A DNA stretch of 64,000 nucleotides, taken from contig JAFGTC010000130.1 in the NCBI GenBank assembly GCA_016934335.1, positions 1-64,000 on the forward strand, in the 5' to 3' direction. A model generated the notes under the pieces. It was not told the origin of the DNA. It worked only from the letters and a program-made list of their open reading frames with translations, and ran no database searches. This DNA comes from Candidatus Omnitrophota bacterium. Lineage in GTDB: Bacteria; Hinthialibacterota; Hinthialibacteria; Hinthialibacterales; Hinthialibacteraceae. Below, in pieces: positions 40,851 to 47,175 of the stretch; position 1 is the stretch's first letter, and each line of letters opens with the position of its first letter. Made by a program: the position numbers and the translations under genes.

Positions 40851-40878
40851 TTGCCTGCCGTTTTCTCCCTCGTATAAT
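40851..40878 (+). promoter_or_regulatory. Sigma70-like promoter for the riboswitch transcript
   Basis: TTGCCT - 16 nt - TATAAT, about 8 nt upstream of the riboswitch 5' end. Confidence 0.6.
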
Positions 40879-40885
40879 GTACGTA

Positions 40886-41078
40886 GACATACCTGGTGCG
40901 GTCATCGCTTTCCATGCGATGAAGAAGGGAAGCCGGTGCGATTCCGGCGCGGTCCCGCCACTGTAATCGGTCATGCCTCGCCATGCGCTATACCCACTGT
41001 CTTCACGATTCGAAGATGGGAAGGGGGCGGGGATGACGGCCGTAAGTCAGGAAACCTGCCCGCCAAGGTTTGTCACCT
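40886..41078 (+). ncRNA. Cobalamin (B12) riboswitch
   Basis: Conserved boxes in order: GGTGC, AGGGAAGCCGGTGCGATTCCGGCGCGGTCCCGCCACTGTAA, CCACTGT, GGGAAG, AAGTCAGGAAACCTGCC. Confidence 0.96.
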
Positions 41079-41122
41079 CTTCGGGGATTGAGAGCGTGGC
41101 ATGTGTTTGATGAGGATTGTCA

Positions 41123-41158
41123 AACGCCCCGTCCTTTGAGAAGAGCGGGGCGTTTTTT
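41123..41158 (+). terminator. Intrinsic terminator in the riboswitch expression platform
   Basis: AACGCCCCG...CGGGGCGTT stem followed by TTTT, upstream of ORF 41234. Confidence 0.88.
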
Positions 41159-41233
41159 CGTCTCCGGCCCTTCTCTATGGAAGGGCCCTCCGTTTCTTCA
41201 TGCCCCGTCATCTTGTATAGGAGTGTATAAAAC

Positions 41234-42070
41234 ATGAAATGGAAAATCGGATTGGTTTTGGGATTGTATCTGGGGGCGTCGACAGGATGGACGGCCAACA
41301 AAGCCGGCGTCGTCATCCAAAATTCCACCGGCGAAGTGATTACGCGCTGCGTTGAATTTGAGGAAGAATTCGTCACTGTCGAAGATTTGCTCGCTCAATC
41401 GGGCTTCGCTATGATTACGGAGGATACGGCCTGGGGCGCTCAATTGCATTATCTGCACGATGACGGCGTTCCCTTCGGCGTAACGCATTCGCAGGGATGG
41501 TTTTGGAATTTCTTCCTGCGCGAGGATGATCAGTGGATCTCCGCGCCGGTTGGAATCTCTTCGGCAACGGCCGTTGACGGTTCGCTCTTTGGCTTCGGCT
41601 TCGGCGCCTGGGGCGAAGTAGAACTGCCGCAGCGCACTTATGCTGATGTTTGCGAAGTTACGAATCAAGCGGCTTTGGTCATCGATCACAGCAATGGGGC
41701 GCGAATTGTGCAGGTTGTGGAATTTTACGGCGAAACTATCACAGGCTTGCAGCTGCTCTTAAAATCGAATCTGGATGTCGTTTCCAAAGAAACCTTCTAT
41801 GGAACAGCAGTCTGTGCTATCGACGGTGAAGGCCAGCCCGCCGATGATTGCTTCGGCGACGCTGAGGGACGCTATTGGGGATTGAATATTCTCGATTCGA
41901 ATAACGCCTGGGCCGTCTCCATTGAAGGCGCCGGCGATTTGATTGTTCGCCGCCATGATGTTCATGGGTACATCTTCGGTTTGTGGGGCGTCATTCAACC
42001 TCCCATCGATCGCAGCGATATTTTCGAGATCCCCTCCGGCATCCCCTTCTGGGGTTCTTATTGGAACTAA
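41234..42070 (+). CDS. Secreted tandem transcobalamin-like (DUF4430-like) domain protein
   Basis: Signal peptide; two repeats (AGVVIQNSTGEVITRCVEFEEEFVTVEDLLAQSGF... and AALVIDHSNGARIVQVVEFYGETITGLQLLLKSNL...), second with AVCAIDGEGQPADDCF...YWGLNI. Confidence 0.75.
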   Translation: MKWKIGLVLGLYLGASTGWTANKAGVVIQNSTGEVITRCVEFEEEFVTVEDLLAQSGFAMITEDTAWGAQLHYLHDDGVPFGVTHSQGWFWNFFLREDDQWISAPVGISSATAVDGSLFGFGFGAWGEVELPQRTYADVCEVTNQAALVIDHSNGARIVQVVEFYGETITGLQLLLKSNLDVVSKETFYGTAVCAIDGEGQPADDCFGDAEGRYWGLNILDSNNAWAVSIEGAGDLIVRRHDVHGYIFGLWGVIQPPIDRSDIFEIPSGIPFWGSYWN

Positions 42071-42088
42071 TTTTCGGATGATGACAGA

Positions 42089-43462
42089 ATGAAATCTTTT
42101 GAGTATTTACGTTTCACTTTGAGTTCAATGGTTCGTTGTTCAAACGGCGGGCTGGGCTTCGCTTTTAGCCCAACCTGCCAGATTTTACTATTATCTTTAG
42201 TATTGCTTGCTCCTCCGATTTGCGCGGTTGAATTTGATGAGCCGTTTCTGATTTATCAGGGCGGGGAAGAGATTCAGTTCTCCTATAATACCAGCGGAGC
42301 GATGGCCGTCGATTCTAAGGGGAGGATTCATCTCGTATATTTTATCGCCGACGCCGGCGGCAGTCTCCCTGACAATCGAATTCTCTATCAAACAATCGCG
42401 GACGGGAGCGTCTCGTCTCCCGCCCGCGTCGACAGCGGGGATCAAGGCGGGGGAAGACATCCCACCCTGGCCGTCGATTCGCAGGACGCCGTTCATATCG
42501 CATGGCAGGATTATCGCCATACGACTGCGCCGGGAAATTACATCGATAATCTCGAAATCTACTATGACAAAAAGACTCCCGGAGGCTCATTTTCCATAGA
42601 CGATGTTCGCATCACCAATACCAGCGCCGGCCACATGGGAGACAGCGGCTATGTTCCCAATATCGATATCGGCGCCGATGATCGCATCGAAATTGCCTGG
42701 TACGATTTCACGGCGAACGGAAATAACGCCGACGTCTACTTGCGAAGAAGCACAGGCCAAGGCGCCTTTCCTCTTCAAGAGGGCATTGAATCGTTTCGAA
42801 TCACCGACGCGTTGAGCGATCCAACAAACTATACCGCCAATTGGATGCCGGACGTCGCCGCCCTCGCGGACGGTTCTTCTTATGTGATTTGGGGATTCCT
42901 CGAAGGCTGGCAGGGCTCTTTCCAACTTCAGGGCCGCTCTATCCTTTCAGACGGCGGCTTGGGCCCCGTCGAAAAAATTGCGGATCAAGGAGGGCGCTTT
43001 CTCGATCCTCCTCGGTTGGCTTCGGATCGCGACGGCAATCTTGGATTGGCTTCCTCTGAATTTGTGGATGGCTTCTACCAGGTGAATTTTTATTACAAGC
43101 CCAAAGCGAGCGACTGGATCGGGCCGATTCGCGCGAACGACGGTTCTTTAAGTTCCTCTCAGCCCTCTCTCGCCTTCGATTCGTCCGGAATTGCTCATGT
43201 CGTCTGGCAGGAGGATTTAAGCGGGATGTATCAGGCCATGCTGGCATCCATCGATCCGCAAACGTTCGCCGTCAATGACCGCCGGATTTTGAGCAGTGAA
43301 GATCGCGATGCGCGCACGCCCGCCATCGCCGTCGATCCCCGAACCGATCAAATTTATGTTGTCTGGATCGAATTTGGCTGGGACGGCGATCGCTCCATCG
43401 TCGGCCGGAGCGAAGCGGCGACGGGTGTTACAGATTGGAAAATGTATGTCTCAAATAAATAA
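42089..43462 (+). CDS. Secreted sialidase-like beta-propeller (BNR-type) protein
   Basis: Repeated blades such as PTLAVDSQDAVHIAWQDYRH, PNIDIGADDRIEIAWYDF, PSLAFDSSGIAHVVWQED, PAIAVDPRTDQIYVVWIEF. Confidence 0.75.
   Translation: MKSFEYLRFTLSSMVRCSNGGLGFAFSPTCQILLLSLVLLAPPICAVEFDEPFLIYQGGEEIQFSYNTSGAMAVDSKGRIHLVYFIADAGGSLPDNRILYQTIADGSVSSPARVDSGDQGGGRHPTLAVDSQDAVHIAWQDYRHTTAPGNYIDNLEIYYDKKTPGGSFSIDDVRITNTSAGHMGDSGYVPNIDIGADDRIEIAWYDFTANGNNADVYLRRSTGQGAFPLQEGIESFRITDALSDPTNYTANWMPDVAALADGSSYVIWGFLEGWQGSFQLQGRSILSDGGLGPVEKIADQGGRFLDPPRLASDRDGNLGLASSEFVDGFYQVNFYYKPKASDWIGPIRANDGSLSSSQPSLAFDSSGIAHVVWQEDLSGMYQAMLASIDPQTFAVNDRRILSSEDRDARTPAIAVDPRTDQIYVVWIEFGWDGDRSIVGRSEAATGVTDWKMYVSNK
42146..42179 (+). 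repeat. 34-nt hairpin-forming repeat, copy 1 (inside ORF 42089)
   Basis: GGCGGGCTGGGCTTCGCTTTTAGCCCAACCTGCC; 29/34 identical to copy 2; GGCGGG/CCTGCC and TGGGCT/AGCCCA stems. Confidence 0.75.
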
Positions 43463-44198
43463 GATCAAAGCGGATGATGGAAGCGGCGGGCGGCGCTTCG
43501 CTTTTAATCCATCCTGCCAAGGACGGTCAGGATTTACTTTGATAGAACTGCTGGCGGCTGTCAGCGTCATCAGCATACTCGCCGCGATACTCGGCGCGAA
43601 CTATATTCACGCCGTTCACCGCGCCGATGCGGCCGCCTGCCAGCAAAATTTGCGAACCGTATTTACCGCTTTGCAATCCTATCGTTTGGATTACAACCAT
43701 TTCCCCCCGGCGGACGGCGTCGCCGACGCTCAAGCCCGGCCGGATCACACGGAATATGGCTGCGGGCCGGCCGCCAATGGATTTTGGAGCGGCGTATCTC
43801 TGTTATTGGCCAAATATCATTTCTGTTCCGAAGAAAGCCTCTACTGTCCGGCTCTCAAGCGGCGCTATCAAAATTCCATTGAGGCCTGGCCCGGCTGCCG
43901 CGATACGCAATTCGCCGGCCGGCAGGCGCCGCAATGGCGATTCCTTCGATTCGCTTACAACAACGCCGCCGCCGACGCCGGCGGGTACAGCGGAGGCGAA
44001 CACAACATCGATGCGATAATCGACGACGATGTCTGGCTTGTTCGATGCCTGCATGTCGACGTCAGTCAATTCGACCCGGCCCGCGCCATCCCTTTTCCTT
44101 TCGAGATCGAACCGGACGAAGATCATCCCGGCAAGACCGGCCGGGGCGAATACGAACTCACTCTCCATGGCAGCATTCGCATGCGTCGCGTGAATTGA
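43446..44198 (+). CDS. Type II secretion/type IV pilin-like pseudopilin (prepilin N-methylation motif)
   Basis: GRSGFTLIELLAAVSVISILAAILGANY; ATG at 43446 overlaps the upstream stop; ORF track start at 43296 is too early. Confidence 0.88.
   Translation: MSQINKIKADDGSGGRRFAFNPSCQGRSGFTLIELLAAVSVISILAAILGANYIHAVHRADAAACQQNLRTVFTALQSYRLDYNHFPPADGVADAQARPDHTEYGCGPAANGFWSGVSLLLAKYHFCSEESLYCPALKRRYQNSIEAWPGCRDTQFAGRQAPQWRFLRFAYNNAAADAGGYSGGEHNIDAIIDDDVWLVRCLHVDVSQFDPARAIPFPFEIEPDEDHPGKTGRGEYELTLHGSIRMRRVN
43485..43518 (+). repeat. 34-nt repeat, copy 2 (inside pseudopilin ORF)
   Basis: GGCGGGCGGCGCTTCGCTTTTAATCCATCCTGCC; same reading frame as copy 1 (GG..FAF.P.CQ). Confidence 0.75.
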
Positions 44199-44339: not shown

Positions 44340-44694
44340 AATTCATTTTCATCGATTCATATCCCAACCCATAGTCATATATAATTTCTGCAACTACCCG
44401 TCCAAAATCCGCATCCTTTCTCTATTCTTATGTCTGAACATGATTTATGTTGAACGGCAGTGTATCATGAGTCGGTTATTTTGGCATAATCGGATCCATG
44501 AAGATAACTTGGGAGATTGCATCGAGCTTGAATACAATGGGAATGGATGCGGCAGAGGGATTATCTTCTTAGATCAACGGAGCGTCATGCTCTTTCCATC
44601 TGCGAATTGGCTGAATAGCGCTGCAATTGGATGTAATGAAAAAGATGTGGAAGCGCGAAAAAAAGATATTTCAAGATATCTGGAGAAGGGAATC

Positions 44695-47175
44695 ATGTTC
44701 TCATATAAAAACAAGCGAGTTGTGATTAACGTATTATTTGTGTTTGCTTTTCTTATAACGCCGGGATGCTCTTCCGCTTTCGATTCCTTCGAACGCGCCA
44801 AACTCCATCCCATCGCCGCCAACCACGCTTGCGTGGATTTCTTCGAAGGCGCGCTGCTCGGCAACGGCGGCATGGGTGCGGTCGTAACTACCCGCCCCGA
44901 CGCCGTTGTGATCTACTTCGGCCACAACAATGTGTGGGATATCCGCGTCGCCGAAGACAATCAAGAGAAGATCGGAACGTTCCAAGAAATCTTTGAAAAA
45001 GTGAAGGCTATTTCCGAAGAGTTGCCTTCGCTCAACGACGATCCATGGTACAACCAATATCGAACCATGACGCGCGAGAATTATGCGAAGCCCTACCCGC
45101 GCCCATTTCCCTGCGGATCGGTGCTGCTCGGGTTCGATCGCCGCGAGGTCAGGCTGCTCGGCCATCGCCTGGATGTTTCGAACGGATTATGCGAAATCGC
45201 GCTGCGCGTCGGAGGCCGTCCTGCGACCTTGCAGGTGTTCGCCGATATGACCGCCGACCGCTTGTGGTTTCAACTGATCGACGAATTCGGCGACTTGCTG
45301 CCTTCCTGCTTCGAACGCATTCGCCTGTTCGCCGATCCAAAGACCCCGGAAGAATTTCCCCGATACACAATCCCCGAATCCCTGCCGGACGATGCTCTCT
45401 CCTTCCGCCAAACTTTACCCGCTCTGGAGCCGGATGAATATGACAAAGAAAAAGGCGATCCCAACGACCGCGCCTTCCACCTGTCGATTCGCTTGAACGC
45501 CAAACTGGAGCGCGGTGAGCGCATCAACTGGGAGGGGCTGCCCCAAGCGATGGAAGCCATGGAGCGGGCTCTCTTGCCCCAGGAAGGCCTCGTTGGCTGC
45601 ATTCAATTGGACGAAGGGCTTTCGGCCGACATCGATGAAGGATTGGGCGACGTTCCCAAACCCACCGGCTGGCGCTTCCATGAAGCCCGGCGTCAAAGCG
45701 ATGAAATATGGAAAGCCTATTGGAACCGGTCCGGCGTCGCTTTGGAGGACGAGTTTCTGGAGCGCGTCTGGTATTGGAATCTCTACTTCATCAACTGCTC
45801 GGTGCGCGATGGAGTCACGTGTCCCGGATTGTTCGCCAATTGGAGTCTTGGCGACATCGGGACAGCCTGGCACGGCGATTACCACATGAACTACAACACC
45901 CAGCAGCCCTTCTGGGCGACATTTTCCAGCAATCACGTGGAAAAGAATCTTCCATATGTTGATTTGGTAGACCATCTGCTGCCCGTCAGCCGAAAATGGG
46001 CCAAGGATTATTACGGTCTGAGAGGGTCGTATTTTCCTCATTCCGCTTATCCAACCCAAATGAACATGATGCCCTATCCCGTCCCCACTTGGGGCTGGGA
46101 AATCTGCGAGACGCCCTGGACGGTGCAGGGGCTCTGGTGGCACTACCTCTATACGATGGACGAATCCTTCCTGCGCGAACGCGCCTTCACTCCCATCCGG
46201 GAGGCGGTTCTGTTTCTTGTCGATTACATGAAACGGCCCGAAGCGCGCGGCGAACGCTGGGGCGACGACAAATATCATATCTTTCCCACCGTCCCGCCGG
46301 AGTTGTACGGGCTCAAACCGGGATTTCAATATAATTACGACTGCCTGGTCGATCTGACGCTGACTAAATTTATATTCAAAGCCTATCTCCAGGCTGTCGA
46401 TGTTCTGAATCAGGACGACGCAGAATTAGTCAGCGACGTCAATGAAATTCTGGAACATTTTCCCGATTACCCCACCGCCGAATCGAAGCGGGGAGCCGTT
46501 TTCGTCTCTGTGCCGGGCGAGCGCTCCGACGTCGTTTACAACGTCCCCAATTCGTTGATGACCGTCTTTCCCGGAGAAGAACATGGGCTCCATTCTCCTG
46601 CGGAAATATACGACATGCTCAAAGTCACCTATCGCAATACCCGCATTGAAGGCGGAAACGAACTGGTGTTTCTCAACCTTCAGGCGGCTCGAATCGGCCT
46701 TCTCGATCTGGAGGAATTTAAACGGCAAATCCGCTACTGCATGCTGCCTAATGGTTCTTGCACGGATATGGTGTTGCAGGTGCACGGGCGCTACAACGAT
46801 TACACAAACTACGCTTTCATGGAGCGTATGGGGATCTGGTTCGAAAATTTCGCTCTGCCGGTCGTGATAAATGAATGCCTGATGCAGAGTTACAACGGAG
46901 TCATCCGTCTATTCCCCAATTGGCCCGAAGAGAAAGACGCCCGTTTTTATTCTCTGCGCGCCGCCGGGGCCTTTTTGGTCAGCGCCGAATATGAAGGCGG
47001 CGCCGTCCAGGGAATTGAGATCGAAAGCGAAGCCGGCGCTCCTCTCCGCCTGATCAATCCCTGGCCTCAAGGCGCTAGAATCGTCGTCGGCCAGAGAGAA
47101 GCCATAGCGACTGGAGAAATCATGGAACAAAAAACAGAAGCGGGAGAGACGATAAGAATAACGCCGTTCAAGTAA
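44695..47175 (+). CDS. GH95-like glycoside hydrolase lipoprotein
   Basis: ATG 44695 after GGAGAAGGG; lipobox LITPGC; FFEGALLGNGGMGAVV; HGDYHMNYNTQQPFWATFSSN; (alpha/alpha)6-like region. Confidence 0.7.
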   Translation: MFSYKNKRVVINVLFVFAFLITPGCSSAFDSFERAKLHPIAANHACVDFFEGALLGNGGMGAVVTTRPDAVVIYFGHNNVWDIRVAEDNQEKIGTFQEIFEKVKAISEELPSLNDDPWYNQYRTMTRENYAKPYPRPFPCGSVLLGFDRREVRLLGHRLDVSNGLCEIALRVGGRPATLQVFADMTADRLWFQLIDEFGDLLPSCFERIRLFADPKTPEEFPRYTIPESLPDDALSFRQTLPALEPDEYDKEKGDPNDRAFHLSIRLNAKLERGERINWEGLPQAMEAMERALLPQEGLVGCIQLDEGLSADIDEGLGDVPKPTGWRFHEARRQSDEIWKAYWNRSGVALEDEFLERVWYWNLYFINCSVRDGVTCPGLFANWSLGDIGTAWHGDYHMNYNTQQPFWATFSSNHVEKNLPYVDLVDHLLPVSRKWAKDYYGLRGSYFPHSAYPTQMNMMPYPVPTWGWEICETPWTVQGLWWHYLYTMDESFLRERAFTPIREAVLFLVDYMKRPEARGERWGDDKYHIFPTVPPELYGLKPGFQYNYDCLVDLTLTKFIFKAYLQAVDVLNQDDAELVSDVNEILEHFPDYPTAESKRGAVFVSVPGERSDVVYNVPNSLMTVFPGEEHGLHSPAEIYDMLKVTYRNTRIEGGNELVFLNLQAARIGLLDLEEFKRQIRYCMLPNGSCTDMVLQVHGRYNDYTNYAFMERMGIWFENFALPVVINECLMQSYNGVIRLFPNWPEEKDARFYSLRAAGAFLVSAEYEGGAVQGIEIESEAGAPLRLINPWPQGARIVVGQREAIATGEIMEQKTEAGETIRITPFK

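Follow-up and report, generated by a model that had tools for sequence, protein, structure and literature searches.

A riboswitch-linked pseudopilin family suggests a pilus-linked route of vitamin B12 uptake in Hinthialibacteria

A cassette of three genes behind a cobalamin (vitamin B12) riboswitch occupies positions 40851 to 44198 of contig JAFGTC010000130.1 (assembly GCA_016934335.1, Candidatus Omnitrophota bacterium; class Hinthialibacteria, order Hinthialibacterales), whose first 64,000 nucleotides (nt) constitute the window analysed here. All three open reading frames (ORFs) and their regulatory elements lie on the forward strand. The genes encode, in order, a tandem transcobalamin-like protein (ORF1, 41234 to 42070, 278 amino acids), a beta-propeller (ORF2, 42089 to 43462, 457 amino acids) and a pseudopilin (ORF3, 43446 to 44198, 250 amino acids), the first two proteins having signal-peptide-like N-termini. 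Upstream, cmscan identified a complete RF00174 aptamer (40881 to 41077, model positions 1-189) at 98.9 bits (E 1.7e-23) against a gathering score of 31.5, followed at 41122 to 41158 by a hairpin and six T, the probable expression platform, with the segment 41110 to 41165 folding at -24.0 kcal/mol. A consensus scan placed a promoter-like TTGCCT-N16-TATAAT (10 of 12 positions) at 40851 to 40878; because sites of this type numbered five in the region versus 3.5 +/- 1.9 in shuffled sequences, it is weak evidence by itself. These elements had been proposed in an earlier model-made reading of the letters (the sequence-only reading), and the Infernal search, the fold and the gene coordinates agree with it, including the tight packing through an 18-nt gap between ORF1 and ORF2 and a 17-nt overlap between ORF2 and ORF3. 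Seven further ORF1 loci of the order were scanned, and all had hairpin-plus-T-run sites 42 to 54 nt 3' of the aptamer; the riboswitch of the window cassette therefore most likely acts on transcription. The same terminator scan returned no such site behind several riboswitches preceding pilin genes, which suggests translational control at those loci.

Gene context supports the view that the cassette very probably belongs to a module for acquiring B12 that has a pseudopilin of its own. ORF3 exceeded the cut-offs of N_methyl (PF07963) and TIGR02532 and carries the prepilin cleavage/methylation motif GFTLIELL at 43530 to 43553; in an alignment of 11 family members the motif reads GFTLIE in ten and AFTLVE in one, with conservation of the glutamate at +5, a residue required for pilin assembly. 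Its N-terminus matches GspG-type models, although the protein remained below the curated cut-off of GspG (41.2 bits versus 88.85) and those of other named pilin equivalogs. We surveyed 14 genomes of the class and 370 more distant genomes, most of them drafts, with a family model (A6) covering the C-terminal part of ORF3 only, without the generic pilin N-terminus. (Genomes, loci and groups of genomes are given G, L and f numbers below where they need to be told apart.) The family was present in 13 of the 14 class genomes and in four of the 370 others, nearly always as a single copy, and riboswitch scans combined with gene lists placed the pilin within a cobalamin-riboswitch operon in 17/17 genomes, a count in which the G007 gene is split across two contig ends and a second G003 copy at a contig end was not judged. 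In most of the class genomes the pilin gene lies directly behind its own riboswitch. The gene orders comprised the pilin alone, pilin-btuC-btuD (a riboswitch unit without an exported binder in G006 and G008), a secreted protein followed by the pilin, ORF1-ORF2-pilin, propeller-pilin-btuD-btuF-btuC and, consecutively behind a riboswitch in the distant genome G276, btuF-btuC-btuD, a gene for a 267-amino-acid protein, the propeller and the pseudopilin; this variation indicates that the association between riboswitch and pilin is not one inherited block. In the tree, a branch with 100/100 support separates the 17 riboswitch-linked pilins from eight other pseudopilins found in the class, and the chance of one gene lying no more than 5 kb downstream of any of up to three riboswitches was estimated at about 0.0014 per genome, a figure that serves only as a guide because the genomes are related. 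The sequence-only reading was thus right in calling ORF3 a pseudopilin but not in calling it lone, since it belongs to a distinct riboswitch-linked family, and its grouping of the three parts into one B12 system gained support from related genomes, in which they recur together with btuFCD; this puts them in one B12 regulon. In G009, an ordinary pseudopilin gene (L040, 645 to 1208) lies about 300 nt behind the only cobalamin riboswitch of that genome, either by coincidence or as a replacement.

Within the approximately 37.7 to 48.3 kb of the window that was annotated, the cassette has no Btu or Cob gene as a neighbor. On another contig of the same genome (L027), a second cobalamin riboswitch (RF00174) precedes btuF-btuD-btuC, encoding a full BtuFCD importer set with a Peripla_BP_2-type BtuF, a FecCD permease and an ABC ATPase. 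The regulon of this genome is consequently wider than the surface proteins to which riboswitch control had been confined in the earlier reading. The class probably cannot make B12 and would need external corrinoid, as suggested by the combination of missing cobQ and MetH-type enzymes: cobQ (cobyric acid synthase, TIGR00313) was over its cut-off in none of the 14 class genomes, with control genomes positive, and MetH-type matches occurred in all 14, seven of them over the full-length cut-off. Omp85 and secretins, found in 14/14 class genomes, are evidence for a diderm envelope, and PilT-type ATPases over cut-off were equally universal, so that machinery that may assemble ORF3, a secretin together with PilT, is encoded in every class genome. 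A TonB plug domain was absent from seven of the 14 class genomes (including all f2 and f4 genomes) and from the four pilin-bearing genomes outside the class, these being drafts in which absence is not proof. The TonB receptors examined in four f1 relatives were of the TOL_0244 type, and the single plug protein in the genome of the window is Xanth-Caul/Oar-like; no BtuB-type receptor was present among the TonB receptors examined, and no class riboswitch was seen before a TonB receptor.

Nine genomes of the order have a conserved ORF1, preceded by RF00174 in every case, with a btuF gene following ORF1-ORF2 in two of them. An AlphaFold2 model built from seven sequences (predicted local distance difference test score, pLDDT, 81) revealed two beta-grasp units, each with a hairpin after the helix, which is the arrangement of transcobalamin-like SLBB domains, and the duplication was also visible as an internal sequence repeat (28% identity, E 7e-13). 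Foldseek against the PDB returned 18 matches below E 0.001, of which 16 were transcobalamin, haptocorrin or intrinsic factor and the remaining two were chains of one Ruminococcus protein, 3u7z; for the comparison with the isolated beta domain of human transcobalamin, target-normalised TM-scores were 0.72-0.76. A sequence search against the PDB yielded nothing useful, Pfam gave no hit for ORF1, and DUF4430 (PF14478) matched neither ORF1 nor seven relatives; the transcobalamin-like nature proposed from the sequence was accordingly retained as a tandem fold, and the Pfam membership was not. A BtuH-like identity was likewise rejected, as BtuH and BtuJ (DUF4465) belong to other families. In transcobalamin-like domains, a conserved hydrophobic hairpin residue stacks on the cobalamin base (Burroughs et al., PMC1796856). 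The aromatic residue adjoining the hairpin glycine is conserved in domain 2 (approximately residues 143-250; 41660 to 41983) of 8/8 ORF1 sequences but not in domain 1 (approximately residues 22-134; 41297 to 41635), and domain 2 is the portion also present in the shorter proteins that G011 and G045 encode behind cobalamin riboswitches; domain 2 is therefore predicted to be the likelier corrinoid binder. Neither the ORF1 nor the ORF2 sequence has an evident lipobox. In G004, ORF1-ORF2 are followed by a same-strand gene that encodes a FIST-domain protein (L018, 1315 to 2511).

The AlphaFold2 model of ORF2 (pLDDT 80; predicted template modeling score 0.82) was a beta-propeller, as the sequence-only reading had anticipated, and of the BNR/sialidase type. 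Its top Foldseek match was 7esl (E 3.9e-12), the closest structures being a rhamnose-glucuronate lyase and sialidases, and BNR_4 was detected in five of seven ORF2 relatives, the window protein scoring under the curated cut-off. Identification with BtuG was not supported, as BtuG was absent from the 50 best PDB fold matches and no PDB match was obtained by sequence. A role of ORF2 in B12 acquisition would rest on the company its gene keeps. It stands behind ORF1 in seven genomes; in G011 an ORF2-type propeller lies between the riboswitch and pilin-btuD-btuF-btuC, in G276 between btuFCD and the pilin, and in G005 directly upstream of the riboswitch of the pilin rather than behind a riboswitch. 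In the distant genome G129, an ORF2-like propeller behind a weaker cobalamin riboswitch (38.3 bits) has two neighbors: a further propeller-like protein and a TonB receptor that, among NCBIfam models, matches the one for the B12 receptor best, with a score under the cut-off. At a contig end, G003 carries a further pilin-propeller pair that has diverged (L093, 3888 to 5938), indicating that the pair was duplicated as a unit. Within the window, a 39-nt repeat (85% identical) occurs at 42142 to 42180 and 43481 to 43519, in the 5' coding parts of ORF2 and ORF3, where it encodes the similar peptides GLGFAFSPTCQ and GRRFAFNPSCQ ahead of a hydrophobic segment; the window search recovered just these two copies, with zero expected by chance, and a short mobile repeat or the copying of a segment may explain them.

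The explanation that we favor for these observations is a pilus-linked import mechanism, to which, taken in full, we assign somewhat less than an even chance. In its specific form, which we hold still more tentatively, a retractile pseudopilus containing the dedicated B12-regulated pilin would take the place of BtuB and TonB in these lineages by pulling corrinoid, free or loaded on a transcobalamin-like carrier, through a secretin towards BtuFCD. Under scarce B12, the riboswitch of what would be a B12-repressed operon would allow transcription past the terminator at 41122 to 41158, and exported ORF1 and the ORF2 propeller would catch corrinoid at or beyond the outer membrane. ORF3 would join a type IV pilus or a type II secretion-like pseudopilus, whose assembly and retraction through the secretin would bring B12, alone or on its binder, into the periplasm; BtuF and BtuCD, supplied by the second riboswitch locus of the genome, would then complete the import, with the pilus route standing in for BtuB-TonB. 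B12 binding, surface location, pilus assembly and the import step are all predicted here from genes and models. Several points count against such a mechanism. Pseudopilins normally serve secretion, which makes export of the binders a live alternative; no pilus assembly gene was found in any of these operons, the machinery being encoded elsewhere in the genome; some f1 genomes possess TonB receptors; the ORF3 family is missing from one genome of the class, G009; the binding of B12, the location at the surface and the retraction step are predictions; and in draft genomes gene absences are not proof.

Alternatively, ORF3 may be an export adaptor, a B12-regulated pseudopilin by which a type II secretion system would select the putative B12 binders ORF1 and ORF2 and push them to the cell surface or into the medium, with corrinoid crossing the outer membrane through another porin or receptor. 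The GspG-type N-terminus, the abundance of secretins and the position of ORF3 beside an exported propeller in the window, G003, G011 and G276 are all in keeping with this explanation, which we nevertheless consider unlikely, given that the pilin-btuC-btuD units of G006 and G008 contain no exported binder and that the f4 and f17 genomes have the pilin where no ORF1 was found. These same two features favor pilus-linked import over export, although sequence alone does not separate them. The sequence-only reading had proposed surface display, in which ORF3 would be a static fibre or anchor holding ORF1 and ORF2 to concentrate B12, with outer-membrane passage by diffusion or another protein. Three exported proteins do share one riboswitch operon, and the lack of an evident lipobox in ORF1 and ORF2 means that another tether would be needed; against this, most relatives carry ORF1 and ORF3 on different contigs, each behind a riboswitch of its own, and ORF3 occurs without detected ORF1. 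The B12-acquisition context of that proposal has held up, and the scaffold role appears improbable, import or binder export fitting the gene company at least as well. More doubtful still is a non-B12 ligand under B12 control, as would be the case if ORF2 were catalytically active as a lyase or in a sialidase-like manner and ORF1 bound a metal or another cofactor, for example. The best PDB matches of ORF2 are indeed polysaccharide lyases and sialidases, and transcobalamin-like domains have been predicted to bind various soluble ligands (PMC1796856), but distant genomes repeatedly place ORF2 and ORF3 in cobalamin-riboswitch units with btuF, btuC and btuD, and the G129 propeller adjoins the TonB receptor with the sub-cut-off match to the B12 receptor model. 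That ORF3 is a chance neighbor in a genome rich in pseudopilins, as the many pseudopilins and the unrelated generic one behind the G009 riboswitch might suggest, is largely refuted and barely credible for a distinct, nearly single-copy family linked to riboswitches in 17/17 genomes, in varied gene orders, also outside the class, and set apart by full branch support.

The competence pilus, which brings DNA in for ComEA, offers an analogy for the proposed import by a pseudopilus, in that a periplasmic receptor would be handed a ligand drawn through a secretin by a retractile (pseudo)pilus; the competence ligand is DNA, the genes are not homologous as a system, and the analogy is of our own drawing. 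Compared with the BtuB-TonB-BtuFCD system of Escherichia coli, the inner-membrane half (BtuF, BtuC and BtuD) is shared and here stands under cobalamin riboswitches, whereas no BtuB-type receptor was detected and a pseudopilin with other exported proteins takes its place in the regulon. To our knowledge, B12 passage across the outer membrane of diderms without BtuB/TonB receptors is not explained by known systems; the regulon supplies candidate parts for such passage and makes the question testable. The Bacteroides BtuB/BtuG/BtuH/BtuJ loci (PMC10404256, PMC8941943, PMC13398666) likewise combine a cobalamin riboswitch, a surface beta-propeller, further exported B12 binders and btuFCD, yet their binders are lipoproteins that act together with BtuB, a TonB receptor, no pilin has been described, BtuG is a different propeller from ORF2, and BtuH and BtuJ have folds other than that of ORF1. 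Bacterial transcobalamin-like SLBB proteins, including DUF4430 (Burroughs et al. 2007, PMC1796856), resemble ORF1 as exported beta-grasp proteins with a hairpin insert, some of them linked or fused to a beta-propeller and some occurring as paralogous pairs; they are mostly from Gram-positives, planctomycetes and archaea, no pseudopilin partner was described, and ORF1 is not a Pfam DUF4430 protein. The beta domain of animal transcobalamin, haptocorrin and intrinsic factor shares its fold with each predicted ORF1 domain, while ORF1 has two such domains, lacks the alpha/alpha toroid and is only predicted to bind B12. In Planctomycetes, pili-like fibres of a diderm bind dextran, some of it apparently internalised (PMC5394234); the nutrient is a polysaccharide rather than a vitamin, and the uptake role was speculative in that work. 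Our literature searches on pilins or pseudopilins with a cobalamin riboswitch or B12 uptake returned nothing relevant. Hence, the B12-regulated pseudopilin family appears undescribed in the papers searched, whereas bacterial transcobalamin-like domains, some propeller-fused, and additional B12 binders at riboswitch loci were already known; together, the findings suggest an undescribed, pilus-linked route of vitamin uptake. Import by a pilus, if true, would be a new kind of B12 acquisition. The B12-controlled tandem transcobalamin-like protein is of interest for how the animal B12 carriers arose, being bacterial, and the family defined here is a pseudopilin family with a putative ligand, which most stand-alone pseudopilin genes lack.

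Further secreted proteins were observed in cobalamin-riboswitch units. One, with weak similarity to LIC_13355-family lipoproteins, precedes the pilin in G025 and G309 (L086, 5902 to 8212; L087, 4779 to 7082), where LarB- and LarC-like genes follow, and comes after a transcobalamin-like protein in G045 (L127, 3645 to 5214); it is a candidate further B12 binder. Behind a second cobalamin riboswitch, 3/3 f4 genomes encode a conserved secreted family (L047, 198 to 1403; L048, 1839 to 3179; L050, 126 to 1451) with 49-57% identity, propeller-like by eye and with no Pfam match. The gene following the cassette in the window (44440 to 47175) is glycoside hydrolase family 95-like, has its own promoter-like site at 44356 to 44385 and was not seen beside the cassette in relatives; it is probably unrelated to the cassette.

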